Origin: Antedon bifida
Taxonomy: Eukaryota > Echinodermata > Crinoidea > Comatulida > Antedonidae
Assembly (NCBI GenBank): GCA_963402885.1
Contig: OY727100.1
Span: forward strand, 19,687,665 to 19,751,664
Direction: 5' to 3'
Length of the DNA: 64,000 nucleotides
Of the stretch, positions 1,101 through 54,569 are shown piece by piece (the first letter of the stretch is position 1; each line of letters begins with the position of its first letter). The notes beneath the pieces were generated by a model. That model searched no databases. It was given only the letters and a program-made list of their open reading frames with translations, and was not told the origin of the DNA. A program made the position numbers and the translations under genes.

Positions 1101-2554
1101 CTTCTATGGAGCGCCATTAAAACATTATAGGAATATAATGGGCCTGAAAATGCACTATTACTCTAAAAACATCACGAGTAGGAGGCTATTACGTAACTGT
1201 TCTTAGACTTAGAGCTTAAAAATTAAGGAATATTCCTTAATCCATGCTTAAAGTAAAAAGTAGGCTAAACGGAAATTGAACTACTTGTTCAAAAAACTTC
1301 ATTTTTGTACAGAGGCAAGAGTTACAAATTGTGATTTGTAATTTTAAAACATAATTTGATTTAATGACAGGTTTTTTGATACGAGTATTTTAAAAAACCT
1401 AATTCACCCGTTGTTTTTTGCCGTTGCTGTTCCATTGTTACAACCAGTTGAAAGGCTGGTTTATAACCATTACACCAAATTCGCATACACATGGTTGTAG
1501 TGAGATTAGCCTAATCACACACAGCATAAAAGACACTGAATTAAAATAAAAAAACTGTTCCCCGGTGTGAATGTAGGAGGAGAATTTTACAGTAGGCGGA
1601 GCCTTTACGCACTCTCGCAGTGCCGTTATTTGCAAATTTGCCAGCATACTTGTTTCCGGAGCTTAGAGCATCTGCTGGATCCGGATCAAGGCTATGCCTA
1701 TAAGCCCCTCTTGAAAATGACATCAAGAGGGGCAAATTTTAAAGGGGGGTTGGTCCATGTCTGTTCGAGACCTGACTTGAATTGATTAGTTGATCTTGAA
1801 GATACTAGTACATCGGTAAAGAATTCCATAGTATGTATGATTGCTTTTCGACCAAACGAGTCTCTCGTCCAATTTGTGCGTTTAAACTGCCCTCGGATGG
1901 CGCATTGAAGACCATGACAACCTAACTCGTTTTCGAAGTTGCACCCATCTATCCAGTTTGAAGACTTTACCCAAGTTTCAGCTCGTTTGGAGTGATTTTT
2001 AAATTTTACTATGACCTTTGATATCGCGCCCTCCTCGATATCGGAATTACACTCATCCTCTATCCTTAAGACTGTTTTCTCAAAGTTTCAGCTCAATCGG
2101 TGCAAACATTTTGACATTTGACCTCGACCCTGACCTTGACGAATAACTGTTTTTTTTCTAATACCGAGTTGCACCCTATAGTCTCTTAGAAAATGAAATA
2201 TTATGATTCAAATTCGTCGCCCTGGTTTTCCACAAAAAATGCTTCGATGATCATCCTCCTATATTATGTTATACAGTGTGCAGTGGACAAAAATTGGGTA
2301 TCAGTGGAGAACAGTGAAATAGTTACATATAATTAACAACAATGAGAACTAAAGTTTCTCGAATTATTAAAACATATTTCACACTGGTATTTGATATATA
2401 TAATATCCTGGATTTATATAGCGTGAAACTTCTTAGCGCTGAACATTATTACCCCATTATAACCTCATTTTTTGGATCAAACACGTATGAAACATACTCC
2501 CAAAATGCAGCTATACTTAATCAGTGCAAAATTGTGTCTTGATCTAACCAGGTA
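1101..2554. other. Intergenic, no gene seen
   Basis: Short open frames occur but none shows a family motif, splice structure or start context. Around 1,950-2,130 there are phrases repeated at short distance (AAGTTTCAGCTC / AGTTTCAGCTCGTTTGG), which suggests an old repeat, not a gene. Confidence 0.5.
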
Positions 2555-2705
2555 CCATTTTATACACCTGGATGGAGAGAGGCAAACGTAAGTAAAGTAT
2601 CTTGTCTAAGTTAAGGATACAAGCAATGCAGCGAGAGTTTGATTCGAACCTCAATCACGATCAGTAGTCCAAGCGTCCAACACACTGCGCCACACGCACA
2701 CACAC
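2555..2705 (-). mobile_element. tRNA-derived SINE
   Basis: Read on the minus strand, the segment begins GTGGCGCAGTGTGTTGGACG, which looks like a Pol III A box. It carries a B box GAGGTTCGAATC about 35 bases on, then an unrelated tail. The B-box spacing matches a tRNA, but the acceptor stem does not close, so it is a SINE head and not a tRNA gene. Confidence 0.65.
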
Positions 2706-3957
2706 GTAGGCCTATGTTCAATATCGGTTACTTCATCCGTAATGCAAAAGAACAATAAGTTTGAAGTAATGTTGTCAGTGATTTTAGTAATTTGCGTTCG
2801 TTTAAAATGTTTATGATAGGCATATAATTAATACAATTCCAACATATTTTTTTCAACTTGGTCATAAGAAATAACATAGAATGTACTTTTTGCGTTTCCG
2901 CTTAACTTACCGCTAACCGCTCGTCTGTGTAAATTGGCCTTTAGTGTGATTTAGTCCACTTGTTGTTACTATAGGGCCTACGTCGTTTCATTGCATGTAA
3001 GTGGGATTTTGTCGGGAGCTCACTTTAAGCCTCCGTAGTGGGTGAATGCGTCACACACCCAAATACAAGAAGTACTGAAGTACTGTACTACTTACTACTT
3101 ACTTACTCGATTAAAGAAAGATTAAGTAGATTAATATATGTTTCTGATTTTTACAAGACAGTATAAAGTCGGAGATAGTTGATTGAAACAATTTATATGA
3201 GTGTATTTTATAAAAATATTGAATATGTTACCTTTTCATTCCTAAGTATAGATCGGATTTTTTTTTCTAAATTTAAGAGAAGCATAACATAGTTCACGGA
3301 ATGTGCAGTGGCGATAAGTAACTGTCACATTGGTGCATTATGGGATACTTTCAAATAAAAAACAGTCTCTACGTTTGATACTACCAGTTGTTATAAGTTA
3401 ATAACAAAAATGGATTAATGATTTAAGTTCACAGTCCCTTGTCCCTCCGTCGGGCAAATCCTAGCGCCAATCCTCTCTAAACAGCACTTTTTTTTAAACG
3501 GCCATCCATCATGAGGAGGCGTCAACGTATGGATATTGAGAGTAGGGGTTTTCCAGATTGTTTACCGCCGCCATATTGATGCTATTCTACGCAGTTTTGT
3601 GCTGCATATTATCAACGAGGTTGTGGCCAGCGATGATATGCTAATATTATAATATGCTAGAGGTGGCAGCACACAGATTATGCTAAGCATACTTTTACCT
3701 AAGAGGGGGTATTTGAATATGTTCTAGGCCTATGTACCTTACCAGTACCACCACCACCACCAAAAGAAAAACGCCAAATCATCAGGAACAACCTACAAAA
3801 ATGTTTTATTGGGCTACCATATCTATAAATTTAGTTTATCGGAGTAAGACATGATGTTGATAACATACACGACGTCGGACCAATCACATTCATTGCATTG
3901 ATGTGTGTGAGAGGATGATCGGAAGAGAGTTTGGCGGGTCATGATGATTGGCGGGAA
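2706..3957. other. Intergenic, no gene seen
   Basis: AT-rich sequence with CA and TAC/TACT-rich simple stretches (about 2,695 and 3,080-3,110). No coding signal is convincing. It ends at the target-site duplication of the large transposon. Confidence 0.5.
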
Positions 3958-3963
3958 AATTAG
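3958..3963. repeat. Target-site duplication (left), AATTAG
   Basis: AATTAG directly precedes the transposon terminus TATGGAACG and is repeated exactly after the other terminus at 15,005-15,010. Confidence 0.85.
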
Positions 3964-4378
3964 TATGGAACGCCAGTAATCTCTTCACATGCGGTGACGT
4001 CATGCTCTCATACTATTTCATTATGCTCTTATACTACACACCATTATCTTATACTCATTCCTAATGCTCTTATGCGCATAACTAATGCTCTTATACTCTT
4101 TCTTAATGCTCTTATACTATTTCTTAAAGCTCTTATACTCTTTCGTCATGCTCTTATACTCTTTCTTAATGACCTTATACTCTTTCGTCATGCTCTTATG
4201 TGACTTTCCATGCTCTTATACTCTTTCGTCATTCTAAATTATGCGACGTATCATGCTCTTATGAGGTAACTGAAAATGCACCGACACATTCTCGACGCAC
4301 GTGGCGCACTACTTCAGATGCAAAATAATCGACGGCTGTACAAATAAGTCTACGAAAGTTACAATTCTCGATCATAAA
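3964..4378 (+). repeat. Left terminal inverted repeat with tandem subunits
   Basis: The sequence matches, inverted, 15,004 down to 12,302 with only the LINE interrupting. Outer ~60 bp are unique (ending GGTGACGTCATGC). Next come about ten imperfect 20-24-bp units around TGCTCTTATACTCTTTC, then an inner unique block ending TTCTCGATCATAAA. The left TIR has about 44 bp (two units) more than the right. The integrase start codon lies 84 bp inside. The repeated units probably bind the transposase and the inner block probably carries promoter or leader; both are inferences. Confidence 0.85.
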
Positions 4379-4461
4379 AGCATCTCATCCTCTTCGGGCC
4401 GGTCCTCCGTGCGCCGATTCTTTTAATGAAAATGGCTAGCCCTAGGCCTACAATATTTCCA

Positions 4462-6714
4462 ATGAAACCAAAGAAATCTTTAAAAAAAATATTAATGGAC
4501 CTTTCGTTTACAAATGCAGTGATGGATGCTTTCGAGAGAGAGGAGGTGATATCATTTAATGTGTATTTCATCATTCATTATAAAAATAGACTAGCCTAGG
4601 CTAGGCCTACTACTTAGGGCCTAGGCTAGGCTAGGCCTAGTACTACTAGGCCTAGGCCTAGATAGAGGCCTAGGCCTAGCTTAGTAGGCCTAGAGTGTGT
4701 AGTAGTATAGGCTAGCCAGCCAGAGCAGAGCAGGCCAGGCTGGCTAGCCTATACTACTACACACTACTACTATATTAATATTAAATAAAGGTAGGGGCCT
4801 AGCGAGGCCTAGGAGGGCATCTATAGGCCGCAGGCCTAGCTAGAGCATGCCAGTATTATATCTAGTATAGGCCTAGCTAGTAGTATAAATAGGCCTACTA
4901 GGCCCCATCATGTTTTTATTTTTGTTAATCCTTTTTAAATGATTCTTAATAAATTAATTCATTTTTTTGGATTGTTTTCTCTGATTAGATTACTATTGAA
5001 ATAGTGGATCATTTAAGCCGTGAGGAATTTGAAAATCTTGGCATACTAACTCGAGAAGAAATGAATTTAATTGTACAGGAATGCAATGCATCGTTAAGAA
5101 ACAAAGTAATTGATAAAGATGTATTACAAAATCTCATCCAACATGGGTACAGTGTATTCGATATAAAAAATTTGATGTGTGTTAGTCGGAGTACTGTGTT
5201 CAGGTGGTTACAAATGTACAATTTATCAGCCATACAGTACAGCAATATTGAAGACAGAGCTTTAGATGACAACATTAGTGAGATACTTATGACCCACTCA
5301 AACTGTGGGGAGGTGATGTTAAAGGGTTTTCTTCAGGATAGAGGCATTTCTGTGCCTCGGAAGGCATTGCGAGATGCAATACATCGTATAGATGAGGAAG
5401 GTTCAGCTAATCGACGTAAAAGGCGTCTTCATCGTCGTGTTTATAGCGTCGAAGGCCCAAATCATTTATGGCATATAGATGGAAACCACAAATTAATTAG
5501 GTACGTAGCTAACCTGAGTATTTATTTTTCAATATCATGTATGTTCAAACCACTGTCACCTATTAAGATAGAGCCTAAAGTTATTATATATTATTTATTG
5601 AAATTTAGTTATCTGCTATTTTTTGTAATTCACAATTTGTTATGTTTTTCTCAAGATGGGGATTTGTCATCCATGGCGGAGTTGATGGTTTTAGCAGACT
5701 ACCTGTTTATTTAAAATGTTCAACAAATAACAGATCATCAACTGTACTGGCTGCATTTTACAAAGCAGTTGAAGAATATGGTGTTCCTCTTCGTGTGCGA
5801 TCGGATGCTGGGGGAGAAAATGTACAAGTTTGGAAGTATATGCAGGAAGTACGAGGTTGGGTTAATGGTCATTTATTAATTTTATTTAAGGGATTGTGGT
5901 TTGTCAAGAAGAAGAGTAAGAGACTAAGATAGGCTGCTACATATATATGTATGCTGCACAAATAGAAATAATGGATACTATAATTCTTTCAACAGGCACT
6001 AGAGGTACTATAATTGGGAAAAGCACTCACAATCAGCGCATCGAAAGACTTTGGCGTGATGTATTCGAGGGGTGCCTGCACCACTTTTACCAGATGTTTT
6101 ACCACCTAGAAGAAGAAGGCAGTCTTGACCCACTAGACGAAATGCAATTATTTTCATTGCAATATGTATTTACTCCTCGAATAAATTTCTCACTACAGGA
6201 ATGGGCAATGGCCTGGAATAACCATCGAATCCGTACTGTTGGACGTACCCCAATTAATATGTGGTTATCTGGCCAGTTGGAGAATCCTGTATCAGAGGTT
6301 GGTTCTAAATATAACAATTTGCATAAAAACATGCATTACTTTTGTCCACATTGTTTTAATTATTTATGTAGAATGTAATATTGTTAGGTTTGCGGTATTT
6401 ATAAGTAAAGTATGGTTAGTAAATTCAGTGGATGTATTGACTTATGTTATGTTTGAACTACAAATTCACAATTCACAAACAATTTTTTTATTCATATGTT
6501 GTTTTTCTCATTATAGTGTGAAATACCTAGTGAAGAAAATAATGATGATGTCGATAGAAATACAAATCCACATGTTATTGTTGAGGAGCCTAATATCCCA
6601 TTACCTGAAATGGCATATGATCAGTTGACTCAAGAAATAGACCCTATGAAAGAAAGTACTCAAAATGGTTTAGATGTATATTTAGATGTAATACAATTTA
6701 TTACTAGACACTGA
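4462..6714 (+). CDS. DDE integrase/transposase of the transposon (five exons, 431 aa)
   Basis: Exons 4462-4545, 4989-5500, 5656-5855, 5996-6297 and 6517-6714 join in frame (1,296 bp) with GT-AG junctions. Residues ~5-65 form a SAM-like module ([31 protein letters not shown]). A helix-turn-helix-like stretch follows ([20 protein letters not shown]), then an rve/integrase fold. Probable catalytic acidic residues are D192 ([10 protein letters not shown]), D249 (VRSDAGGEN) and E282 (HNQRIERLW). The junction after residue 198 restores [19 protein letters not shown], a signature I know from animal integrase-core transposases, which supports the splice model. The acidic tail ends [16 protein letters not shown]. 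The protein should cut and join the transposon ends. The start ATG matches the homologous start of the HECT gene. No catalytic residue appears lost. Confidence 0.88.
4575..4900. repeat. AGGCCTAG-rich low-complexity tract with a perfect inverted repeat
   Basis: Inside intron 1 of the integrase the sequence is made largely of AGGCCTAG/CTAGGC words. It contains a perfect inverted repeat: 28-bp arms at 4,694-4,721 and 4,738-4,765 around a 16-base spacer. A similar CTAG-rich tract lies near the other gene's first intron (about 11,940-12,070). Confidence 0.8.
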
Positions 6715-7126
6715 ATTTTACCATATATTTTTGTTGATACTCTATTAGAATATAGATATGATAAAAATAGTGAATAGTGTTTATGTGGAACAAATTAACA
6801 AACAAATTATAACAAAATATCTTTCTTAAACATTTAAATTATCTGAATAACCAATCATTCCTTTACCAAAAATGTTTGTAAAAGTTAAAAAATGTTACAT
6901 AGTGTACAATGCTGTTACAATTAGCATAGAAAATCAAGAAAGATAAATCAAGATTATTTATGTCATTTTGATCAACCATCTATTATTTTGTAATTGTTCA
7001 GTACAGTTAAAAGTTTTTTAATTAAAATTCAAGTTTGAATGAACCAAATAACCTGTTAAAACTGCTGTATGTATACTTGTATACAGAACAACAGAATAAA
7101 CTGATACAGACTATGTTGCAACATAC
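6715..7126. other. Spacer between the two convergent transposon genes
   Basis: AT-rich and non-coding. It must hold both 3' ends; AATAAA-like words occur, but no poly(A) site can be assigned with confidence. Confidence 0.5.
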
Positions 7127-10100
7127 TCACATCTTACCAAAACCTTTTCCCAATATAACTGCGTCATCAAATATTTCTCTAAAGAGAATTGGGTCTTCTA
7201 TTCCCCTTGGTAAGTGAACAATTAATGCACACGTCGAAGCTGTAGGATACCCCTTAGCTGAAGGCCCCTCTTTTGTGAAGAAATCCACTTCGATTTTTCT
7301 GTCAAATCCCATTGGAGGAACTTCATCAGCTCCAGTTATAAAAGCTAGGATATCTTTTAATGAATTCTTAGTCTTGCCATCTGTAATCATATAATAAAAT
7401 CGGTGTGCACTTTAAAGAATCAAGTGTATCTTTCGGAACAGTAAGGATTGAACATTTATATTATTTAGGCCTAAATATAAAACTTTACACAAAGTTTAAG
7501 AAAACAGAATACCTTCACAATCTTGGAGGTATAGTTCCCAACAAAAAATTGTGTCATCCTCTTGTATTCTTAAATTCGATCCCTCTTCCGAAAATATAAC
7601 CTTGATTAATGACTTAAAGGCACGTTTAGACAGAGAGTCAACTGCATTGGGAGTAAAGAGTGGTTTAAACTGGTCGGGAAATCCTTTCACAATGTCCCAC
7701 AGAACACCCAGTCCCTCTGTGAACTGCCCTATTGCTGCTTTCGTTCTGTAATATAATATCAAATTCATAGAGTTGTATACTTGTTAAACCAATTGTTGTG
7801 TTGTTATAAGATCATTTAGTATTAAGTTTTGCGCTTTCCTCACCTGTAAAACATAAACTGCTTTATCAATGATGCAACGACTTCTTGTCGGTTACCAAAA
7901 TCTGCTGCATACAGCGACATTACTCCACGGTCTGCTGCCCAGTCTGCTAGTTCTTGTGCAACAAGTGTGTATTCCGCTGCAGACTTACACTTTGATATCT
8001 GAAAAGAAAAACAAAAAAGAAAAGAATCCTGATGAATGCTACAATTGAATAAAGCACACATTAACTAATCAATTCCAGATAGGATAGCCTACTCTCACTA
8101 ACCACTAAAGTTTAGATCAAAAAATGATAAATAAATGAACACAAACGGACTACATAGATAAAAGTAAGTGTCATCGAAATGAATTATAAGTAAATCGAGA
8201 CTGTGTTGTTACTTTAATTGAAATAAAATTAGGTGTAGACTGTACTTTTTCAAGTTTGATGCGCATATCTTCATCAGTAATGGCAGTTACATCAGTCAGT
8301 GGACCAACTCTGGTATTCCCACACATCAGGTTGTACAATTGTGGATGGAATATTGGCAGTCCGGGTCCACCATGAAGAATGCTCCATGCAACCAGACTAC
8401 CAGCAATAAGGTAGCTGTTTTTTTCCAGCAAAGTTACATCATATGTAAAATATTTGCCACCAGCAGGTCCCTCGAAAATCCCCATCTCATCAGAAATTGC
8501 TTTCATCAATAACCTTCAAAAGTAAACAAAGCTCCATAAATGATAATCAATTGCAATATTTGTTCAAATACAATTATTAATTCAATTAGTGAATTTCCGA
8601 AAGCTCAACGTTTCACTCTGGCTGTTTAATCAATCAAAATAATTAGGAAACACATACGGTAATAATTAAACTTAATAAGTAATGAATGACACTCTCACCT
8701 AAACATTTCCCGCTTGGGTCCTCCTATGTCTGCGGCTTCTTCTCCTGCGAAATCTACAACTACTTTGTTTCGGCAGTTAAAGCCATCTTGGCCAAAAGCA
8801 TACAAAACTGATTTCAATAGTTTTCTTCTATGTACGATTATATTTTGAGTGGCGTCATCGTTGCGGTTTACTTGGTAATTTTCTAGTAAGTCCTTCATGG
8901 AAACCTCAGCAGTAGGAGTTCTATTTTATAAAGCACATGATTGTTATGTAGGTCTATGTTGCATGAATCTTTTCAATTTATTTTTTGCTAAATAATAAAG
9001 ACAGCACTGTACTAACCCTGGTCTCTGCACATCTTCGAAACTATTGCGTATTGCACGCATTAGATCATCTGTGTCCTCGTCTTCAGGATCAGATGTACAT
9101 AATTTTACATACATACTGTATGCAGACCTTGAACGTAAAAATATACAATTTATTTGAAACAATTGTTTGTAGAAAGCAAAATTACAGCATAAAATCAACG
9201 TCAATCAATGAAGAGTATTTTCGTCAGAGATTGTGTACAGCAAAGTAATCTTAAACTCACTCATCGTTGTTCGAAGGTAGGCCTACCAATTGACCAGAAG
9301 TCATGTGGTCTCTAGACTGAGCTGCTTGACTTGTCGATGGCTGATCAGCATTAAAAGATGTTATCTGAAATATAAAGAAATCACATTCCAAAGTAAAAAC
9401 AATAGTGATCAGTTGAGACAAAAGTATAATTCATTTAATCAATTTATTTATTAAGGTATAAAATATACAGCCAGCATACAGTACAATAATAGCATAAAGT
9501 TAGATTTTTTGTACCGTTAAGTTCCGCACAGACTTGATACAAATATTAGAAAAAAGGTTTGTTACCAAAGTGGTTGTTGAAATAACGATGGTAGCAATTC
9601 CAAAGGTTAAGAAGTAAAACTTACATTTACCGGATCGGTACTGGTAAGATGTTTAAATTCAGGATCATAAAGTACGTCATTTATGTCATCCTAAAAAAAA
9701 TGAATAAAAGTATCGTAGTAGGCCTAATTAAGATACTGCCGATTGCATAATATTTTTTTCAACATGCAATTGCCCTTTTCATCTTGTTTCAGCGTACAAA
9801 GGATAATAATGTAGATCGTAATTTTAAGTAGATAAGTTAATAGACAGCACTCAAAATCAGAGATATGACGTATGAAGTGCGCTTCTATCTTTAGTAGGCT
9901 TATAGACCTATGGTAATAATTCATATTATAAGATGCAATAATACAATAGCCATGTTTTTTACATCAACTACTAAGTGAGATACAAAGAAATAAAGAAAAA
10001 CTTAAGATTACTATACCTCTTCGTCGGTCAAGGTTGATCCAGAATTAGAACTAAAGAAATAAACAAAAATGTCATGAACTACTAATTGTGCTCTGATATT

Positions 10101-12240
10101 TAAATTATAGGCCTAATATTTGAAATAGTAATGGAGATTGTATGCCCTACCAACAGTTTAAAAAACAGATTCCCACAATAACGGTATAAATTATTATTCA
10201 TTAGGCCTACTGTAAGTAAATAGAATAATTTGTTCCGTTTCCAGAAGCTTGTTCCACTGACATCAGAATGTTCATATACTGGCAAATCCACAAAAGGAAA
10301 ATAAATTTGGATTCATCAATGTAAGGTTGAGGCAATAATTATTTGTTTTTGATATTTTCAAGTATCTATTATTCAACCTAAATTTAATTAATTTCGAATA
10401 CTTGCCTGCAGTTTTCGACATGCTTCTTCAGCTCGTTTAGGAACATCGACTTGCTGCATTTATTGCACGTCTGCATTAGTCCACTATTTTCCGATTCAGT
10501 CCCCTACACAAAATAACGAGTAGGCCTATGATAGTATGCTATAGGCAACCTTTTCTTTCTAGTCGTTTTCTTTCCATTATTAAGGATTGTAAAGTTTACA
10601 TTTAATATTTACAAATATAATTTGATGAATGGTTAATTAAACATGACAAACACTTATACTTACATCGATTGGCCCGACCTCCAAATTATTTTGAATTGGC
10701 CTAACAAAAAGGCGTCCTTGGCCAATATTTTCTTTGACTGATTTCGGCGTGTATGCCCCAGCCATTGGGGTAAGCTTTCTAGAATTCACATTGCAATATA
10801 ATAATTCAAATCCTCCTCCTTCTCGCAATTTTGGAAATGCATTAAATAACATTTCCTGAAATTGAGCAGGAGTTATATCTAAATTGTCAAATGCTAGAAT
10901 TTTCTCGCCGAGACCAGCAGTTTTTAGAGCCTGTTTCTCACTGCATGTAGGACTATACGTTTGATCTTTGTTTGCAACGCAAACTACTTTTTTGGTCCAA
11001 GCTACTACTTTCTTTCCTTTTCCGCTCTTTCTTTTGGAATATGGTGCAAAACGTGGAAATCTTGCCAGCAGAGATCCTATCATAAGATAAGAAAACCCGT
11101 AATCAAACATAATCAATAGTGTTTCAATATACTGTATATGATAGGCATTGTGTACTTGTGACAATCGTGGTGATTTCGAGAAAAATTGAAATGTTGTAAA
11201 TTTAATCTACAAGCTGAAATGTTTTATATTTTTGTTTAACGTATGAGACATTATTTATCACCATCATCATTTACATCATTTTTTTACGAGAATTTCAGAA
11301 ATCCATGAAGGATTGATTCTATTCTATTGAAACAATGTAGCCGGACAAAATAATCATACTTGTCACCAGAGTGCAACACAATACATAGGCCTACATAGCT
11401 AATAATACGCAAGTATACGTACAAGTCATCCAATCAAATAATTAAAAATAATAAATGACTTCATTAAAACAACCTACCAGTAGTCCTACACGCCATTCTT
11501 AGACGGTGCTTTGAGCCAATGCTCAGTACCCCCAATGCCTCTAGTTGCTGATCTGTCAATGATGACACTTGATCAGCTGTTATCTTTAAAGAAATACAAT
11601 ATACTTCTTATATCTCATATGCAATGAATGTAGGCCTAATTATTTTATAATAATAGGCCTATAGTATAATCATAATTGAAAATTGCATGTATACTCAAAA
11701 CTAAGTGAATTATTAAGAATAGGCCTAGCCTACAGTAGTAGCTCAGACATAGGTCTACTATTTTTATTATTTTGGCAAGGTACTGAAAATAGGCCTATTA
11801 TTAGTTATACTCTTTTTATTTAGCTAGTGACAGTGTGACGTGTATGGTGTTTTTTGGCCCGGACTTTTATATGCCCAAGAATATGCTTAGTTTATTCTAA
11901 CATAATATCAAAGTACAATATGGGCATATACGCATTTATAGGGCTTATAGCCTAGCAAGGGTAGTAGATAGCTAGCTAGCTATACTAGCACTACTACTAT
12001 ATACTAACTAGGGCCTAGTACTATTACTAGCTACGAGCTACTCTAGTCTAGGCCTAGCCCTAGCAAGAAGGTAGACCGACCAAGCTAGTCTTACACAAAA
12101 TAAACAGAAATAATACGGTATATAGGCCTAAAAACAAAATAAATCACCTCCTCTCTTTCAAACGCCTCTACTACAACATTTGCAAATGACATTTCAATTA
12201 ATATTTGTCTTAATGGTTTTTTTTTTTGCGTTTCAGCCAT
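7127..12240 (-). CDS. HECT-type E3 ubiquitin ligase carried by the transposon (13 exons, 718 aa)
   Basis: Exons, from the start: 12240-12148, 11583-11478, 11076-10664, 10503-10406, 10050-10017, 9690-9625, 9364-9261, 9127-9017, 8920-8699, 8513-8246, 7998-7844, 7745-7513, 7380-7127. All phases agree (2,157 bp); exon 4 ends at a GC donor (CAG|GCAAGT), the rest are GT-AG. Domains: SAM-like module (residues ~8-66), a conserved middle region (CVANKDQ, GLGEKILAF, FPKLREGGGFELL), a C2HC finger with UBZ4 spacing (C217, C220, H232, C236), a UIM-like helix (EDTDDLMRAIRNSFED, ~322-337), and a full-length HECT domain from ~370. The HECT start reads DFAGEEAADIGGPKREMF and the catalytic cysteine is C685 in PTASTCALIVHLP. 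HECT ligases accept ubiquitin on this cysteine and pass it to substrates. It resembles the many G2E3-like genes annotated in fish and cnidarians. The N-terminal ATG is in frame with a second one at 12,192. Confidence 0.88.
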
Positions 12241-12445
12241 TATGAGTTTTTATTGCTGCTGCTGAAACGTGTGGAAAAGTTAATTCGCGTGTGTGTACAA
12301 GTTTATGATCGAGAATTGTAACTTTCGTAGACTTATTTGTACAGCCGTCGATTATTTTACATTTGAAGTAGTGCGCCACGAGCGTCGAGAATGTGTCGGT
12401 GCATTTTCAGTTACCTCATAAGAGCAGGATACGTCGCATAATTTA

Positions 12446-14774
12446 TTTATTTATTTATTTGTTCTTTCTTTAAACTGAAATACACTTTCAATACAGATGT
12501 ACTGATTTCCAAAGTGGTTCAGTAAACATATTTACAACAAAAATAAAATATAAAAGAAAAACAAAAAGAAAGAAAACAGATATAAAACTATTTACAATTG
12601 TGAAGGCAAAAAGGTTAATACATATATGATTTCTATAGTGAAGATTTAAAAGTTGCCAAAGACATATTATGGAGTTCTGATTTTATGTTATTTGGTAGAG
12701 AATTCCATAATTTAGTTGATCTATAAACAAAAGTTCTTTTACCCTGAGAGTTATTCCATAACGGAATAGATAAATCATTATTACTTTGGGAGCGAGTGCA
12801 TTTATTATGGTTATCTACAGTAAATTGAAATAATATTGTTAAGTATCTTGGAGCTATTTCTTTTAAACATTTAAATAGCATTATAAGAATATTTTCATTC
12901 CATTTTTCTGTAAGTCTACTCCATCCAAGAGTACTTAAGATATCATTAATAGGGGTATACATGTCTACTGATAACAATATTCTACCTAATCTGTTGATTA
13001 AAACCTGAAGAGAATCTGAAAAACTTATGTTACAATTGGACCAAACACAGCAACAATAATCAAATAATGGAATAATTAAAGCATTTGCTAACATTTTTAA
13101 AGTATACATAGGAAGATACATCTTAATACGACGAATCACACCGATACGTTTAGCTATTTTACAAGACATTTTGTCTATATGTTCCTTCCAATTTAGTTGA
13201 GGATCAAAAATGACACCTAAATACTTAAAAGAATCAACTCTTTCAATAGTTTCGTTATTATGAAGTAAAGTTATATTCTTAAATGTTGCCGTTTTCTGAT
13301 TTGTGCTGAAAACCATAAGCTTGGTCTTATTAAGATTTAGTGTGAGTTGATTATGGTCAAACCATTCTATAATTTTGTTTAGACTGATATTGAGTTGATT
13401 CTGAAGTATTAAAGGGTCAGATGAACTACATAAGAGTGTTGTATCATCTGCATACATCACACATTTACATGATAAAAATTCAGGAAGTGAATTTACGTAT
13501 AAAATAAATAGTAAAGGTCCCAGTATTGATCCTTGTGGGACACCAATATTAACATTCATGGTGTCAGATTTTGTTGAATTTATACAAACAACTTGAGATC
13601 GTCCACTTAAATATGATTTAAACCAGTGAAGTGCAATATCATTTAAGCCATAATTCCTTAATTTGGTAAGTAATATTTCATGGTTAACTGTATCAAATGC
13701 TTTCTTCAAGTCAAGAAATAAAGCAGCAGATGAAATACCTTTATCAAAGTTATCTAAAATATAATCAGTAACATCTAAAAGAGTAGTTTCTGTAGAGTGA
13801 CCTTTTCTAAAGCCCGATTGGGAGGGATTTATAAGGTTGTTAGTTCTTAAATACAAGTATAATTGATCATGCACAGCACGTTCTAAGAGTTTTGAAAGTA
13901 TGGGTAAAACAGAAATTGGGCGGTAATTATAAGGGTCTGACATATCCCCATCTTTATATACAGGTGTTACCTTAGCTAGTTTCCATTCATCTGGAAATCT
14001 AGAACTGAACATAGAAAGATTACAAATATATGAGAGTGAGTCACAAATTATCGGAGCAGCTAGTTTAAGAAGTTTGCAATCAAAGTTATCAACACCCATA
14101 GCTTTATTAGTTGACAATTTACATAACTGGTTAAAAATGTAATCAGGGGTAAGAAGATCAAATTCAAATTTGTTACCCGCAAAACAATTTTCTGAAGTGT
14201 TACTAGTATAATTATTGGAGTTAGTATTATTGGAGTTAGTAAATTGATTTGCTAAAGAACTTCCAATTGAAGTAAAATGAGCATTGAAAACATTGGCTGT
14301 GTCCTTATCATTGGATGTATAGTTTTTATTATTATCTTTATATACATTATTTATACTGGGTTTAGTTTTAGGTATTAATTTATTTATTGTATTCCATAAT
14401 TTCTTAGGATTTTTAGCATTTTCGTTAATAGTATTTGTACAATATTTTCTTTTTAAATTCCTATTTAAATTATTAACTTGATTTCTCAGTTGTTTAGCTT
14501 TGTCCCAATCTTCAGGTTCATTAGTTTTGTGAGCTTTCTTATAATAGTAGTCTCTGTCTTTTGTTAATCTTATATAATCAGTGGTTATCCATTCAGGAAG
14601 TGATCCTTTCACTCTCTTTGTCTTTAAAGGGGCATGCCGATTACATAACTCACCAAATAAGTGTTTCCATAGCAACCAGACAGTGTTAACATTAGAGTAA
14701 AGCTTGATTTGATCCCAGTCAATACATTTTAAATCTTCTATAAATTTGTTTTGGTCAAATTTTTTAAAAGAACG
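12446..14774 (-). mobile_element. 5'-truncated LINE inserted in the transposon TIR
   Basis: A minus-strand non-LTR retrotransposon. Its 3' end is at the left with a (TAAA)n-type tail (about 12,441-12,461), and its 5' end is cut within the coding region, so the endonuclease domain is absent. The insertion point is defined by comparison with the intact left TIR. No clear target-site duplication is visible. The reverse transcriptase resembles the CR1/L2/Jockey superfamily. Confidence 0.85.
12633..14773 (-). CDS. LINE ORF2, reverse transcriptase (5' partial)
   Basis: The frame is open from the truncated 5' end to a stop at 12,633, at least 700 codons. It has the ordered RT blocks: DPYNYRPISVLPILSKLLER, QSGFRKGHSTETTLL, ALFLDLKKAFDTVNH, GVPQGSILGPLLF and the catalytic YADDTTLL box. 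A thumb and C-terminal domain follow, ending near FVYRSTKLWNSLPNNI. The protein copies the element's RNA into DNA at the target nick. The endonuclease that should precede it is missing by truncation, so the copy is dead on arrival, yet the remaining frame has no break, which points to a recent insertion. Confidence 0.9.
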
Positions 14775-15004
14775 AGAATGACGAAAGAGTATAAGAGCAT
14801 GGGAAGTCTCATAAGAGCATGACGAAAGAGTATAAGAGCTTTAAGAAATAGTATAAGAGCATTAAGAAAGAGTATAAGAGCATTAGTTATGCGCATAAGA
14901 GCATTAGGAATGAGTATAAGATAATGGTGTGTAGTATAAGAGCATAATGAAATAGTATGAGAGCATGACGTCACCGCATGTGAAGAGATTACTGGCGTTC
15001 CATA

Positions 15005-15010
15005 AATTAG
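15005..15010. repeat. Target-site duplication (right), AATTAG
   Basis: Exact copy of the six bases at 3,958-3,963, immediately outside the right terminus. Confidence 0.85.
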
Positions 15011-15250: not shown

Positions 15251-15392
15251 GGGACCTAGGCGGGTGCAGGTCAAGTCGGCCCCAAACCGTCTCGGCCAAA
15301 GTCAAGTCGGCCACGTCAACTCGGCCCCACGTCAACTCGGCCTCAGATCAACTCGGCCTCACGTCAACTCGGCCACAATAAAGTATGGAACG
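15251..15392 (+). repeat. AACTCGGCC tandem repeat, end of a TIR element
   Basis: Five to six imperfect units of about 17-20 bp around GTCAACTCGGCC are followed by AAAGTATGGAACGC. The same arrangement forms the arms of the element at 49,672-50,129, so this is probably a solo or truncated arm of the same non-autonomous family. Confidence 0.7.
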
Positions 15393-15394
15393 CA

Positions 15395-15580
15395 TAATAT
15401 TATAATAATAATAATAACAACTTTATTTAAAAACGGATGCAACACTTGAATCACCATATTGGTGTTTTTCACAAGGCCGTTAGTTACTTACTACAAAACT
15501 ATTTATACTAGCCTATTACACAAGTTATCATTTACAGTACAAAAACAACAACAAAAAAAAAAAAAAAAAAAAAAAAAAGA
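15395..15580 (-). mobile_element. Probable 3' end of a retroelement plus poly(A)
   Basis: On the minus strand the sequence ends AAATAAAGTTGTTATTATTATT, a typical LINE/SINE 3' end with a polyadenylation-like word. A run of about 24 A on plus (about 15,555-15,578) lies beside it. No protein domain can be read. Confidence 0.4.
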
Positions 15581-25800: not shown

Positions 25801-28800
25801 GAAGTGACAGTACAGTGTGTAGAAAGTGTAGAAATAATTTCAAAGGCACTTGCAGTTAGATTTACATTTCTTGTATTAAGTGTATACATAAAAACTAAAA
25901 TTTAACATTTAACTTTGTTATAATTATTAATATGTAAATTGTTATCTACAGGTTTTTCTATTTTTGGATGTATCCTACTGATAAGCTGTACACATGCTGT
26001 GATTGTAGATCTGAATTTGCAACCAAGCAATACCATTATTGAAAACCATGCAGTGGGCTTCAAGTGCTCTTTTGAAAGATCTAAGTCAACATCTGTCCTA
26101 GATCCAACAATCATTTGGTACAAGGAGGATGATAGAGGAAGACATATTCTAGGAAGAAATCAAGGCATGTACAAGGAAGTGGCTGACAAGACAAGAATGA
26201 ACATTCTTGATAATGTTCTTACGATACAACCAGTAAAACGATCAGACACTGGGGTTTACATATGTGAAGTTACTCTACTCGATGATGAACCATTTAGAAA
26301 TGCTACAACAGGCAATGTTTTGATGATATTGTGTAAGAATAAAATACACATTTTCATTCTAGAATACAATATCATTTCTGAAAATGAATAGTCCTTTACA
26401 TTCACAGACAGTATGCTTAACACCTTTAATACATTTTTTTAGAAGATTTTTATACTATACAATACTGTGCAAATATTTAATGAAAAAAGAAATATGAATT
26501 AATAACATTTTTCATGGACTACCTAAAAACACATTATTACAGTAGTCACTATTACTTACGGTATGTCTGTTTTTGCTCTGTCAAATACTATTGTATTACA
26601 TACAAAATGTAAAAAAAAAAAAAATAATAGTACATATTTTTTCCAGACCACCTTATCATTTCTTTTAGAGTGATTATGAGTTTTATTTTTTGTAATTTAT
26701 TACTAAGACCTGGATTCACCAAACATTATCTTATTCTCGGATAATGTCACCTGTACCAGTGGGGATGCTTATCCAGAACCATCTCTTATCATATACAAAA
26801 ATAGTAAAACGGTAGCATCTACTAATGGAACTGTGTTAGAGTACAGAACAAATGATGGTAGCAGTGATTATTACTGTAAAGCGAAGAATGAAGCAGGAGA
26901 AAAGGAAAGTAACCACCTTACTTTTGGAAACTGTGAGTTAATTAATTGAAAACAAATTTATGTTTATTTATTTTTAATCTTAAGTAAGTAGAGTATTATC
27001 AATCCATACAAGCAATAGTAAAAATTCAATGTTGTTACTGGTATTATCTCAAAACTGAATATATGCTTCACATACTGTAAAGCATTGTACTTTTTTGCAA
27101 ATTAAGCAAAGATTTGATGTAATCATGGAGAAATATGTAATTATTACGGTATTCAACTTTTTTTTTTAAGAATTAAACATTTATAATTATACATGTTTTA
27201 ATTGCACAATTTCTATTATAATTTTTTTTTATAGATCATACTTCTACAACATTTTATGGTATGTATTTAATTTAGTTCTTTATGAATTTTTGTCATAATT
27301 GTTGTTAGTGAGCTTTCACATTGGGGCTGGCGCCAGACGGTTGTATAAAGTGTCTACTGTCCTGTTTCACACAAGTGACAATGGCCCTGTATACACAGAC
27401 TTGGTAGGGCATGTTTGAGTGGGTTCTGCGTTAGCCAGGCATTCTTTAAGCGAGCTTACGAGAATCAATCTAGAAGAATCAAGATTAATTCACAGTATAT
27501 GCATATGCAAACTATATGATATACATAATATATGGTTTTAGTTTAGTTTAAAACAACTAGAAATGAAAAACCTAGGCCTACAATGTATGCATAGGCTTCA
27601 TACTGTACTTATCGGCCACTTTTTATTGTTGGAAACATTCCAAGATGCCATCAAATTTGCTTCATCTTGTTTTTAAACAAAACGTTAAATTGGCGGTAAT
27701 CAACGAAACAGAGTGTACTGGGCTTACTTACACATCCGCAATTTAATCTTTTGTATAAATTAGCAACACCTGTTACCATCCCAATACACGTCCATGCCAA
27801 TAAATTCCAGTGTATACCAGGATCGTATTCATATAAGACTATCATGCCTGGAATATATACCAACTTTCATTGAGAAATTTAAGGTATATTCGGCCAAAAC
27901 TGATAAAATGTCATTTATCAATAGTGTATAAGTTTTTCATGTCATACTGACATGGTAATGGTATCCCTGTATGTTCCGTCACACTGTGAGAAAAAGATTT
28001 ATGAAATTGAATAGAACAGCCAGTCAAATAAAATTATTGCCTCAAATCAAATGAATACAAAACATTCCTACTGCATTGAGGGATTCACCATTGAATAGAA
28101 TTTAATACTGGTTAATGAATAATTTATAAAAACACAACTAAAAAATACTATACTGTAGTAATTTAATTTAAAAATTTGGCCATGGAGCTATAAATGTAGT
28201 TCTATGCTTTTACTAAGGGACATACTCATGTAATTATGTTTTCCTCTAGGTTCAAGTGTCTCTCCATCTGTGGAGGATGGTACGTGTATTTAATGTATTT
28301 TTTTAATAATACAAAATACTAACAAAATTTTTTTAATAATACAAAATACTAACAAAATTAATTATAAAATTATTGTTTGTTACCAGATTGAATGTTGTAC
28401 TAATAGAGCCCTTCTCATGATCAAATTTTACACAATTAAAATGTAAAAAAAAAAAAATCAAAACTATGTTTAATTATTTCTTGCGTAGTATCATAGGGAC
28501 ACTACAGTTTACACAGCACTTCACACTAAACGCCGCCTCCTTACATTGCACATGCCCCATTATAAATTGTCTATCTTTTATCATGTCTGTCTGATTTAAT
28601 ACAAACATTTTTTTCTGCTGTGAAACTTATTTGTTCAGGGTAAAACTTTAGGACAACACAATGACGTAAGTACACTGCAAGTAATTTTACCAATCATGAT
28701 GATCTATCATGTTGTGATTGGTCAAACTGCTTGAAGCTTAAATCACGGAAGAGTGAGAACCCTCTAGCCACATGAATGAATGAATGTTATTTTTGTGGTT

Positions 28801-43800: not shown

Positions 43801-46800
43801 TTTATTTCCTTTTGGAAACACATAGAACTTCAGTAGGCCTACAACAGTAGTATATAAATAAAGCACAAGTCAGAGTGAGTTAGTGGCGCACTTGAGTATG
43901 AGTATGAGTATTTACAATGGTGCAACATGCACGACATTGTGAATACCCGAGAGTGACGCATTTCATCGCGTCTGATTTGATACATCTCTGTACTGACCAA
44001 CCATCCTAATTTGTTTTCAGCCAACAGCAAAAAATTGATTTGTATTGATAAAAGGAAGCCAAAAAACTTAAATAATAATATAAACGAATATAGTTTGCTA
44101 GAGGGTGCAGGACTGTAAACCTCTTCTGGCTTCCCAACTATTGGGGTTGAAATCCTAAAACAACTTCCAATTGCCATAAAGCATTTGTCAATTTTTAGAT
44201 TTACTTCTTAATTAATGTTTTCTGACATTTTAAAATTAGATACACATTGTATGATTTACAATTCATATACTTTGTATATTTTTAATAGTTCACAATTATT
44301 ATTTTTTGATAGCTTAAATGTCACTGGAGGAAGATTATCAAGTGTGGAAAGTTCGTAAGTATTCTCATAATAGTACTTTGTCTCTACGATGTAGGCTGTT
44401 GATAAAACATTTTAAGGATCCAATATATATTTGTTACTGGTGGTTGTTGGTTGCTCAATGCAGTGTAATCATGAGTGAGACGCTATTGTGAAATCTCATC
44501 CAATCTATCCCATTCTTTTAGTATTGGGTAGATCTAGTTCACCATCATCTCTGTTATAGTATTTTCTTAATTTTATTGATTCTTTGATTTTCCTGTCCTT
44601 CCATGAGGCTTTAGTGGTTATAGATACCAAAAGAGGATTTTTAACACTTTAAAATGCACATTTTAAGTTTTATGTAGCTTTTGTATGTTTAGATTTACTT
44701 ATATTTACTATAATTTTGTTTAGGAGCTCAAATGGTAGCGAGGAAAACAAAACAAGTAGTGACGCTCTGTAAGTATTTGTGTACATGTTTAAAACAGATA
44801 TATTTAGTGAATACAGTTAGTACATTTTGTCACTTAGTATAATTTAAAAATCGTTACAATTTATAAAAATAGTAACAAGGCCATATACATGGCTGCAGTC
44901 GCGTGCTCAAGTTAGTGTTTACCAACCAACCAACCGACATAGTGAGCTGTAGAATTGGATAAACATAATAATAAAATTTAACATTAAAATTAACATAACT
45001 CTCAATTACATACAACATACAATTACAATTTATAATACTAGAGGGTGAGCTCTCTTCGCTCGCTCGCCCCCCCCCCCCTCCCCCCTCCTTCTAGGAAGTG
45101 TAGACGATGGTTCTCGGAATGATAATGACTCGGGTAAAAAGGTTTTAGAAGGACATTCTAGCATGGACGTTGTCGGTCGGTTACCATTATTGAAATGATT
45201 GATATTCGTAAAAATAAACCTACTCACGAACCTGTTTCACAGTGTCTTAGACGACTAAAAACGTTTTACGTATAGTGTTTATTGTTTGGTGGGGCCCTTA
45301 TAGTGTGGATGTGGGGAGGCGGAGTTAATTTGAGGGAGGCGCTTATTCAAGCGATACGTTTATTTACATTTACAAATAAAATCCTCTAGTAGATAGAGGT
45401 TAGGAGGGGGTGGGGGCGGGTTGGAGGTGGTCGGCGATAATTATTAGGTGATCATTTAGAATAAAATGATCACCTATTGTTATTGTATCAAATCTTTATT
45501 TTTCTTTTTATTGTTTCTGTACACTATTTTGTGTAACAATTATCTCAAAAAGTTTAATGTCAATGATTACAAAAATTTCAGAATATCTTTCAAATAATAT
45601 AACTTAATCCTAATAAGCTTTCCAGCGTGATCACTCATCCGTGACGTCATTTATACGCAATTTTGTGAAATCACATTATCAATCATATCTCCATAATTCA
45701 TTATCACATATTAATGAAATTCACTACACGTAAACTTCAGGTCAAGGGTAAAAATATTAGCAAATAAAAAGTTGCGCGTTTCAAGGTCATGCACGTAAAA
45801 TCGCGCGTTAAAAATTTAGAACGCTCAAAATTAAATTTTGATCAATTTAGAGCATGAATTAGGCCAAAAACGCGTTTTTGCGCACGCGATTCTTAGAAAG
45901 CGTAAAAAATAAAATTTGATGTATAAATCACAATCTACTCACAATTCTTAGTACATTCACCGATTTTGAGTCCATTCCGACCTAAGATAACGCTATACGA
46001 GCACGTTAAAAATGACAAAATACGCAAATTAATTGCATCAAAGTGCTGAAAATGGTGAAAAATAAGGCATTTTTAAAATGAAAATAACTCTTCAGAATGC
46101 AAGATGACCCCCAATTTTTTTAACTTATTCAGGAAGCCATTGAGTTGTAGATATGAATTCATGTACACATTTGACGTACAAAATGTTGTGACGTCATCAA
46201 ATGGCCACTTGAATTTAAAATTAAGTTTTTTTTCTCTTTTGTCATATTTTATCACATTCAATAGAACGCATCTCTAATAATTTGTGCCTGATTTTCGCTC
46301 AAATTTTAGTATGTGATTGCTCAATTAATTGACTTTCTCATGACCTGCCACTATTTTTATTTTGATGACGTCATCATGCGGATGTTGTGACGTTAACATA
46401 TGGCCAGTTGAAGTTAAAAAGTAGTTTTTTCATCTTTTTCGTCAAAGTTATACAAATTTCAATGAGCGCGCACAGCGCTTCTACGTGCCAAATTCTCTTC
46501 CAATTCTTATATTTATTTGCTCAATTCATTATCTTTCAAAATTGTCATCTTCAAGTTTATTTTGATAATTCCATCATACCAAAAAATTAGAACATGATGT
46601 GTGTCCCGTAATTTCACCTATGCTACACTGTATATAGATACATTATATACTGTACATATTGTATATGGCATATAATAGGCACAACTCAGCACTAAAGCGT
46701 ATAATAGGATGGCATACATCAACATTTTCTGATCGTATGTTAACGTACGTGCAAAAAAATTATTTCGGTAAAATGATAAAAATGATCACCTATAATTCGT

Positions 46801-49800
46801 CAAAGTGACGAATTAAATTCTAGTTTGAATTGATGTTTTATTGGGGAGTTGTTTATTCAAATAAATACCATCCTAATTGGTATAATTAATGCATTATTTT
46901 GCGACACAGTGAGTCGTTTTGGCCTAAGAAGGAAGACGTTTTAGACAGCTAGCAACATAATGGGACACATATAGCGCACAGTATACATAAAGTCCTGGCA
47001 GCTTACTCAACAACTCGGCTATATCGGGGTTTCACTCGATTTCGAACAAAAGCTCTTATCATCAGTTCTCCCAACGTAATTTTATATACTTATTCCCCAT
47101 AAATATACTCCTATGTTTTATGAATATATTTAATTTGATCTTTATTAATGTACTACTGTACCTTCACACGCACGGTCCGAAAATAGAACTAAAAATAAAA
47201 TGGCTATCGCCACCAACGGCCAACTTAGTTGAAACCAAACATGCAGGAAGTTGCAAGGTGATTGACACACCTTACCGTGAACCCGGAAATTACTTCTACC
47301 GCGCGTAGAGTTAAAAAATCTACCGATGAGATCAGAAATTTTGTTATAAAACCCTTTATAATATCTTCCTAAGATAGAAATATGGAACAATATCGTAATA
47401 GTGGAAACTAATGTTATCACTTAAATCTACGTTTCGCGGTACATCTGAGATAGATAAGCTCGTCTATGTCAGAATTAACCATAATTTATGGCAGGTTATT
47501 GCTAAGCAACGTAAACCTCCAAAAAACATAGCAAACCCCATAAATCCAACATAAAAGTTACTGAATCGAGTAGTTTTCTACACACTTGTCCAAAAAAGAA
47601 TACATTTTTGTTGTTAACTACTTACTGATTTTAGGGGGAAAACATCATTTTGTGGTTAAAAATAATTGCTGAACCTAAAAAAAAAACATAGCAAACCCCA
47701 CCAAACCAACATAAAAGCTACTGAATTGTGTAATGGTATTAACGTTGGTTCAGTTTAATTTTTTTTTAATGTAAAAATCCTGCTGAACCAACATACCAAA
47801 CTTGATTAAAAAGTGTTTGATTTTTGTTAATGTGATTTGGTTACTTTTAGATGTTTATTGATTTACATTAGTGGGTAATGTAGTGGATGAAACAACATTT
47901 CTTAGACCTGTACAGGTTACAAAATAATTTAAAGTTGCTAATTATAAGTAATTCAAATGACCTAAGCATTGTCTACACTAGCTAACTTTTGTTGTTGTTT
48001 TGTTGTGCTACTTGAGGTTCTCCATCTGAAGATAACATGGCTTTGATTTTATTTATTTTGATACCATACAAATACAAACAAAATCATTCGTATGGTACCA
48101 GGGATCTCTCTAAATCCAAAAAAGTTTTCCGGCTAATCTTAAATGGACATCCACCAGCCCTAACCACAATTCTCTCCAACAGTAACAAACTTGGAGTTTG
48201 CTAGTATACAAATAATGAATGTTTATGAGTGTAATGGTACAAATAATGGCATGAGGTGAATGATAAAAGGTTATATATCAACGAGGCGACAGCCGAGTTG
48301 ATATTTTAACCTTTCATCATTCATCAAATGCCATTATTTTGCACCATTACACGAATATAAAACATTCATTATTTGTTTTATATAACATCTAAATAGATTT
48401 GAATCAAATGAAAGGTACGCCTAGCCAAGGCCTACATTTGATTCACATTGATTAACAGTAACATTTGGTTTTTAATAATTATATTATATATTATTATTCA
48501 TAGGCCTAGCAAGGCTAAAACGGCTATACCCCTAACACTAACTGACAGGGCCTACTAGGCATATCCTACTAGCCTGAAAGACAGCAATACGAAACTGCGA
48601 CAGGCAACTGGAATTAATCCAGGCTAATTATGTTTTTTCTAATGATTCCACGTCTTGTAGAGATGTTCTAATTAATTAATCAAAATCCTAAAAACGATCT
48701 AAAGCTAATTTAAATGCCTTTTTGAATTAAATTAGTACATATATATCTCCAAATCGTACACAAAAATCTGCTGCTACTGCATATCGCGGTGGTGTTTACA
48801 AACAAAAAAGAAGCAATACAACAGGTGGCACTGTTGTATTTCACAGTAATTTGTACACAATTTTTTTTCCATCTGCGAAACGTTTTTTTTTTCGTACACA
48901 AAAATGTTGTAAAAGTACTATTAAACGTTCGTTTAATAGTGCGTACTATTGCACACCCACTACCCACAATTGTCCAATCAAATGACGGGAATATATTTAG
49001 GTGTTATATAATGTAGACTATGCTTAAACCATATAGTAAAGGCTCCTTCCATAAGACCGAAATAGATAAAAATGGACAACAAAGTGAAGATAATTTTGCA
49101 ATGACTAAAAGCAACTACCATGAAAGACATTTAAGCAAAGTTGAACATTATCCACAGACAAGCCTTGTAAGTACAATAAATAAGCCCATAAAACAAGCTA
49201 AACCTTTCAAACTTTTTAAAACAATGCAGCTAACAATCTAAACAAAGTTGCATTTCCTTGTTAATAGAAGTTTCAGTTAAATTTAATTTCCAAACTAAAT
49301 GATTGGACGGATCGTAGTGTCATTTATTAGTTTTTTTACACTTCATACAGAAAGGAGAACTGTAATCTACTCTCATTTTGATTTAATATTGAATTTCTAT
49401 TACCTTTTTTAGTTCATTTCATTACAAAAATGTAAGCTGGAAAAAATGATAAATCAATTCATTTCAGGCAATGTTTTTTTTTACTATTTAGACCTAAACA
49501 TTTACAATGTTAGTACCAAAATATAGCTTTCTTGGTAGATTATTTTATTAGTTTTTGCAATTTCTAAATAAATTAAATTTTCTTTATATTGTTGTTTACT
49601 GTAACTCCAACTCTCAGTTGGAGTTACAGTAAACAACAACTACATTGATGCAGTACTGGTAGTTAATTCGATCCAAGTCGGCCCTAAACTGTCTCGGCCA
49701 AAGTCAAGTCGGGCCCAAGTCAACTCGGCCTCATGTCAACTCGGCCTCACGTCAACTCAGCCCTGTTAAAGTATGGAACACAAAAAGTGCAAAGGAAGGG

Positions 49801-54165: not shown

Positions 54166-54569
54166 AGATAAATAAAGTTGAAATAGGCCTAAATAAAATT
54201 TTTAAAAAAAGCATTTTTATATAAAAACGAACTTGATAAACAATGTCTGTAAACGGATTGTACACTGTAAAGATAGCTGTAGATAATGAAAGAAAACAAA
54301 CCAAACATGTATTGGTAGGATATTATGTAAAGATATATGAATACGAGTAGACAATTTGTAAACAGATGATACAAAAAATATGGTGTAAACAAAATGTTTT
54401 AAGTAAAGAGAAAATGGGTTATGGTTAGTTAATGCATGTACACTTTGATTAAGTTTCAGATTTAGCTTGTTGTCAATAAACCACTTCAAATCCACTTTAA
54501 TATTTGGAAATATTTTGTTTTATTTTGTATAACTTTTGTAAAGTATAAAGTATTAATGATTATATATCT

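Follow-up and report, generated by a model that had tools for sequence, protein, structure and literature searches.

Positions 3964–15004 of the DNA analysed here, a 64,000-nt stretch of Antedon bifida contig OY727100.1 (the window), are occupied by a DNA transposon that carries two genes, one for an IS3-like transposase and the other for a predicted HECT ubiquitin ligase (Table 1). The anatomy of the element and of its genes described below is that of this single locus. The initial annotation had reported exact AATTAG target-site duplications (TSDs), matching termini and two fully open multi-exon genes between terminal inverted repeats (TIRs), and all of these features were confirmed. The termini read TATGG..CCATA: TATGGAACG stands at position 3964, and the other end of the element closes with its complement at 15004. 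A 6-bp match by itself would be expected at a rate of approximately 1 in 2000 to 4000, but together with a long TIR at both ends it excludes a chance origin of the AATTAG pair.

Table 1. Coordinates of the transposon features in the window.
Feature	Position	Strand	Remarks
Left TSD, AATTAG	3958..3963	.	Exact 6-bp repeat
Left TIR, 415 bp, begins TATGGAACG	3964..4378	+	9 GCTCTTAT motifs; inner edge 53 bp before transposase ATG
21-bp tandem array, left TIR	4002..4227	+	10.9 copies
Transposase gene, 441 aa	4432..6714	+	5 exons: 4432–4545, 4989–5500, 5656–5855, 5996–6297, 6517–6714
Transposase exon 1 and exon 2 start, SAM-like domain	4432..5093	+	Homologous to HECT protein start
HECT ligase gene, 716 aa	7127..12240	-	13 exons; predicted active-site Cys683
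HECT catalytic domain, exons 9–13	7127..8920	-	PTASTC active site, C-terminal GFGKM
Motif DDLMRAIRNSFED, like a ubiquitin-interacting motif (residues 323–335), HECT exon 8	9017..9127	-	Pattern match
C2HC-like zinc finger, HECT exon 4	10406..10503	-	zf_C2HC_14, E 0.0063, below Pfam cut-off
Predicted ubiquitin-like (beta-grasp) domain, HECT exon 3	10664..11076	-	Structure model and Foldseek
HECT exons 1–2, SAM-like domain	11478..12240	-	Homologous to transposase start
Right TIR, inner part	12302..12445	-	140/144 identical to left TIR; edge 61 bp before HECT ATG
LINE fragment, ~2.3 kb, nested in right TIR (limits approximate)	12446..14773	-	RVT_1, E 7.6e-40 (Pfam); (AAAT)n tail
Right TIR, outer part	14774..15004	-	100% complementarity with left TIR over outermost 194 bp
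21-bp tandem array, right TIR	14774..14970	-	9.5 copies
Right TSD, AATTAG	15005..15010	.	Exact 6-bp repeat

The right TIR is split by a fragment of a long interspersed nuclear element (LINE) with a long open reverse-transcriptase frame (12633–14840), which we read as a nested insertion and no part of the transposon; when it is subtracted, 8,713 bp of transposon remain. The outer parts of the two TIRs align with 223 of 233 columns identical and 3 gap columns. Both contain tandem arrays of 21-bp units that are ~74% alike. The motif GCTCTTAT occurs 9 times in the left TIR and 8 times in the right one, and the intervals between its copies are exactly 21 bp in four of eight cases on the left and four of seven on the right, the rest being 20 or 41–45 bp (for the last interval on the right, the sequences flanking the LINE were joined before measuring). 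The CTCTTAT core of the motif has no occurrence on either strand between the TIRs (4379–12301) and four in the 52,953 flanking bases (both strands together). As 21 bp corresponds to two helical turns, the sites of an array would face one side of the DNA; the arrays are possible binding sites of the transposase. Since the TIRs end so close to the two start codons, this one repeated sequence could serve for the transcription of either gene.

Both gene models were built by hand from splice consensus and open frame. Fifteen of the 16 introns have GT-AG borders, and the remaining one, after HECT exon 4, is GC-AG. The spliced transposase sequence has 31 and 39 stops in the wrong frames and the spliced HECT sequence 54 and 60. 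The two genes converge, leaving a gap of 412 bp (6715–7126). Numbered from the start codon, HECT exons 1–7 are located at 12148–12240, 11478–11583, 10664–11076, 10406–10503, 10017–10050, 9631–9690 and 9261–9364, and exons 8–13 at 9017–9127, 8699–8920, 8246–8513, 7844–7998, 7513–7745 and 7127–7380. By eye, several copies of AGGCCTA lie within introns of both genes; this heptamer is found 56 times in the window (1–64000) versus ~1.7 expected from base composition.

In the predicted transposase, a SAM-like domain is followed by a helix-turn-helix (HTH) and an rva_4/rve catalytic domain. Comparison with Pfam gave rva_4 (PF24764; E 6.7e-78, positions 1–188 of 194), rve (E 1.2e-6, 29.2 bits, cut-off 32.6) and HTH_29 (E 2.7e-4); the integrase zinc-binding domain (HHCC) was absent among the 8 families listed from the Pfam scan. 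The predicted catalytic triad, D202, D259 and E292, is common to two sponge relatives of the protein, described below. A tblastn search of plasmid records with the transposase matched 1158 records at E up to 1, the strongest at E 7e-6. Among the best 20 of these matches, 14 are annotated as IS3 family, 1 as IS481 and 5 have no informative name. The alignment starts at residues 66–75 in 19 of the 20 matches listed (at residue 5 in the remaining one, H4), which places the start of the IS3-like part after approximately the first 70 residues, past the SAM-like domain.

The ligase has the predicted layout SAM, ubiquitin-like domain, C2HC finger, ubiquitin-interacting motif (UIM) and HECT. Its match to the Pfam HECT family (PF00632) has an E-value of 8.2e-9 (36.0 bits, cut-off 23.9) and covers positions 6–282 of 306. 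The nearest relative of solved structure found by phmmer was E6AP/UBE3A (E 5.7e-7), with an alignment that covers the N-lobe start and the C-terminal part and places PTASTC opposite PTSHTC and GFGK opposite GFGM. This alignment makes Cys683 the predicted catalytic residue, in agreement with the earlier claim that the HECT cysteine had been kept. The protein shares with other HECT E3 ligases, E6AP and the G2E3-like animal copies among them, the N-lobe, the C-lobe, the active-site cysteine and the C-terminal tail, whereas its predicted SAM-like, ubiquitin-like, C2HC and UIM N-terminal parts and its location between TIRs set it apart from them. The motif DDLMRAIRNSFED resembles the UIM consensus; the pattern, or a form one residue longer, arose in 4 of 5000 protein shuffles, and the ligase had no Pfam UIM match.

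The exon-3 domain, likewise without a Pfam match, was modelled together with its three sponge relatives (see below). The model has a predicted local distance difference test score (pLDDT) of 79, and between residues 31 and 130 its ten-residue blocks score 83–91. Foldseek placed SAP18 first (E 2.2e-3, probability 0.99) and the C-terminal domain of RING1B next, followed by PB1, RA, FERM, the ubiquitin-like domains of tubulin cofactors and USP7, and others; the domains named here have beta-grasp folds, which does not hold for every match listed. TM-scores by query length ranged from 0.28 to 0.48 among the 50 matches listed. As no match reached 1e-3, the assignment of a ubiquitin-like domain is kept at probable. 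A profile of the four exon-3 sequences found no relative among solved structures (best E 1.3). RNase E matches of a single-sequence model of exon 3 were set aside because that model, with a pLDDT of 59, was too uncertain.

The main new result is that the two proteins begin with a common SAM-like domain, and no other finding speaks so strongly for the ligase being a part of the transposon. Residues 14–73 of the transposase align without gaps to residues 7–66 of the ligase, with 24 of 60 positions identical, and the alignment score of 121 compares with a maximum of 53 in 5000 shuffles. In both genes, intron 1 is in phase 0 and immediately follows the FEREE codons. A profile of the two sequences matched, among solved structures, the SAM domains of CNK2 (E 7.7e-5), tankyrase-2 (8.5e-4) and bicaudal C (0.039), and the N-terminal domain of both proteins is probably a SAM domain. 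The SAM domains of these three proteins form polymers or heteromers. The two coding segments differ at 81 bases, 25, 19 and 37 of them in codon positions 1, 2 and 3, respectively, and this mild third-position excess (p 0.014) suggests that both SAM copies have been kept as protein. At the nucleotide level, an inverted similarity of 97 bp (72%) spans exon 1 and the first part of the adjoining intron at both ends. The common docking domain suggests that the transposase and the ligase work as a pair. Together with the shared intron position and the gene starts 53 and 61 bp from the TIRs, it supports the proposal of the initial annotation, in which the element itself encodes the ligase as an accessory to its transposase.

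Published marks of IS3EU transposons are TA..TA ends, a TSD that usually measures 6 bp and the lack of an HHCC motif (PMC10045372) and, for the fungal families described, TAYGG..CCRTA ends and TIRs of over 30 bp (PMC12730594). The element fits all of these: it has TATGG..CCATA termini, a 6-bp TSD, a long TIR and an IS3-like DDE transposase without HHCC. The suspected relationship to IS3EU is therefore supported by the termini, the TSD and the transposase type, and we read the element as a cut-and-paste DNA transposon of this type, probably autonomous, with two genes of its own. It differs in that its second gene encodes a HECT protein and its transposase bears a SAM-like domain; the cited sections of these papers mention neither for IS3EU. 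Fungal IS3EU elements that bear TET also carry an alpha-kinase gene, which is oriented opposite to the transposase gene (PMC12730594). The A. bifida element resembles the fungal alpha-kinase/TET/JBP elements in that its second gene is oriented opposite to the transposase and in that the enzymes could modify host or transposon components, but it encodes a ubiquitin ligase in place of a kinase and dioxygenase, and the cited part of that report describes no common N-terminal domain.

A link between an integrase-like transposase and the ubiquitin/SUMO pathway is also known from Ginger1 transposons, whose protease domains, of the OTU or Ulp1 type, have been proposed to act on repair (PMC2836005). 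As far as the cited part of that paper goes, however, the Ginger1 domain lies within the transposase and would remove ubiquitin or SUMO, whereas the A. bifida element has a ubiquitin writer in a separate gene. Ginger1 TSDs are 4 bp long (PMC10045372), compared with 6 bp here, and OTU and Ulp1 were absent from our Pfam scan. Among the literature matches listed, none concerned HECT in a DNA transposon, and the word HECT is absent from PMC10045372, PMC12730594, PMC10641963, PMC2836005 and PMC5753468; its occurrences in PMC6027436 concern mimivirus and papillomavirus. Earlier notice in Repbase or GingerRoot work is possible. Accessory genes as such are already known in IS3EU elements (the fungal alpha-kinase and TET); HECT as an accessory gene appears to be new.

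Relatives of both proteins were found on sponge-like contigs. A degenerate transposase motif had three matches in genome contigs (L001, L002 and L003) of a Cycloclasticus bin from a Poecilosclerida sponge; from their introns, retrotransposon genes and GC content we infer that these contigs are sponge DNA. Their transposase pieces are 36–48% identical to the transposase in the window, and a further piece, degenerate, is present on a fourth contig (C133). Just before the HTH, L001 and L002 have RGRP and L003 has AGRP; the window transposase lacks this GRP motif, and its SAM-like domain lies just upstream of the corresponding point. The N-terminal frames of L001, L002 and L003 gave no Pfam match to SAM, so that the SAM-like domain looks like an addition in this element, where both proteins have it. 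Just upstream of the transposase, L001 has three 21-bp units of other sequence (2214–2276), and L003 has 23–24-bp units ~600 bp upstream; no such array was found in L002.

When the HECT protein was compared with 311 genomes of the same order, two matched. The match in one of them (L015, in G278) was rejected because it lies almost wholly opposite a long, bacterial-looking frame (5–1669) and contains a stop. In the other, a sponge-contaminated assembly, the exon-3 domain was found on three contigs (C141, C131 and C203) and HECT-domain pieces on C141, C107 and C193. The order of parts in the ligase is repeated on contig C141 (L018), which has the exon-3 domain (with a stop), then the C2HC finger, repeats that by eye are UIM-like, and the HECT N-lobe; from this it follows that this architecture is wider than the present element. 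No N-terminus common to the sponge transposases and the sponge HECT relatives was found, and the HECT contigs may miss the gene starts. An rva_4 match on C236 (E 0.0099) was dropped, being below the family cut-off. With the whole-protein query, none of 15 pattern matches in genome contigs was confirmed, and viral contigs yielded no confirmed relative with the transposase, the HECT protein, the degenerate motif, the transposase alignment or the TIR. As a separate observation, an open frame at 11126–11827 of C193 (L027 in G001), the sponge-like contig with a HECT fragment, resembles by eye the RAG1 zinc/RING region.

These data can be combined into the following scheme. Both genes would be driven by promoters in the repeated TIR, and the transposase would bind the 21-bp TIR arrays. 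Co-assembly of the SAM domains of the two proteins would bring the ligase to the transposase bound at the transposon ends. There it would ubiquitinate the transposase, which would then be turned over or have its strand-transfer complex dismantled; alternatively, the targets would be nearby chromatin and repair proteins of the host. The UIM and the ubiquitin-like domain may help the ligase to extend or read ubiquitin chains. That the ligase is encoded by the element, as an anatomical part of it, is almost certain. Docking through SAM domains is plausible, although we put it slightly short of an even chance. The ligase is most likely an accessory transposition factor and not a passenger, given the common SAM domain and the proposed carriage of the ligase to TIR-bound transposase, and an IS3EU-type element with the ligase in this accessory role is, as a whole, the best explanation of the locus and a fairly probable one.

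Several observations weigh against this explanation. Judged individually, the SAM matches fall short: the ligase reaches 22.6 bits with the Pfam SAM_1 profile (E 1.4e-4), just under the cut-off of 23.0, and the transposase, at E 0.039, is weak by itself. The spacing between D259 and E292 is 32 residues, two and four fewer than in the two sponge relatives, so that full transposase activity is not assured. The HECT-bearing element has been seen in one copy only; BLAST found no second copy of the element or of either protein in the window, where matches outside the element were limited to 26–45 bp. A TAYGG end was not found within ~700 bp upstream of two of the sponge transposases. Relatives of the transposase and of the HECT protein occurred together on none of nine sponge contigs (five with ligase-type sequences and four with transposase). 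Seven of the nine, at 3.1–4.3 kb, could not contain a whole element, but a transposase is also missing from the two longer contigs with HECT-family pieces, of 12.1 and 16.6 kb. Finally, in the sponge-contaminated assembly, where the protein query had matches, the Pfam HECT profile had none, which also means that diverged HECT copies can be missed by this profile.

Other accounts of the second gene have to be considered. The ligase could serve against the host, by degrading or modifying silencing or DNA-repair proteins, an account that is compatible with an accessory role and that we consider rather unlikely. Precedents exist in the proposed anti-silencing function of TET/JBP genes in fungal transposons, IS3EU included (PMC12730594), and in the proposed action on repair of the Ginger1 ubiquitin/SUMO proteases (PMC2836005). 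The common SAM domain, however, points first to contact with the transposase; a function against the host would agree with it if SAM only brings the ligase to the transposon ends.

It is unlikely that the ligase gene is a captured host gene of the G2E3-like HECT type, mobile with the element and without a role in transposition. Its 13 exons give it the appearance of a host gene, and the same domain order exists without a transposase in the sponge contig L018, but HECT exons 1–2 are homologous to transposase exons 1–2 and have the intron at the same site. The gene, moreover, starts 61 bp past the TIR and its whole frame is intact; for a passenger, none of these features, the homologous exons included, would be required. 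Another improbable account ascribes the shared N-terminus to copying of the TIR, promoter and first exons from one end of the element to the other, with no role in binding. The 97-bp inverted similarity makes such an origin plausible; nevertheless, the two SAM copies, at 40% protein identity, are both open, their joint profile still matches SAM, and the excess of third-position differences suggests that both have been kept as protein. The notion of a resident host HECT gene merely flanked by transposon ends, for which we found no supporting point, is scarcely credible in view of the TSD, the TIR edges immediately ahead of both start codons and the SAM exons in common with the transposase.

The remainder of the window contains several other repeats and open frames. 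An inverted-repeat element of ~450 bp with AAGTCGGCC-rich ends is located at 49674–50126, and part of it recurs at 15267–15400, just right of the transposon. A second TATGGAACG, at 15384, was rejected as a further end of the transposon, as it sits in a copy of a repeat that recurs at both ends of the 49674–50126 element. Inverted arms that are 70–82% alike are repeated over ~17 kb (46049–46636, 59233–59732 and 61030–63881). Two adjacent open frames at 54549–55872 resemble, by eye, a second, broken LINE reverse transcriptase, and an open frame at 25924–26391 resembles by eye an immunoglobulin domain exon, as would be expected of an animal host.

Animal genomes hold many unexplained G2E3-like HECT copies, and the initial annotation had suggested that many lineage-specific HECT expansions consist of transposon genes. 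The ligase relatives on five sponge contigs agree with this suggestion, but the absence of any contig with both genes among the nine leaves it weakly supported. More broadly, and tentatively, one may picture an animal two-protein machine in which a transposase and a transposon-encoded ligase that share a SAM docking domain come together on phased TIR arrays, with ubiquitin controlling or finishing transposition or disarming the host, and in which many of the G2E3-like copies would be remnants or domesticated derivatives. If the accessory role is true, a ubiquitin writer tied to a transposase by a common domain would constitute a testable system, and elements of this kind would be a possible origin of animal HECT genes that have no assigned role. 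Comparison with the fungal elements suggests that animals and fungi differ in the regulatory enzymes that have come to occupy the second-gene slot of IS3EU transposons.

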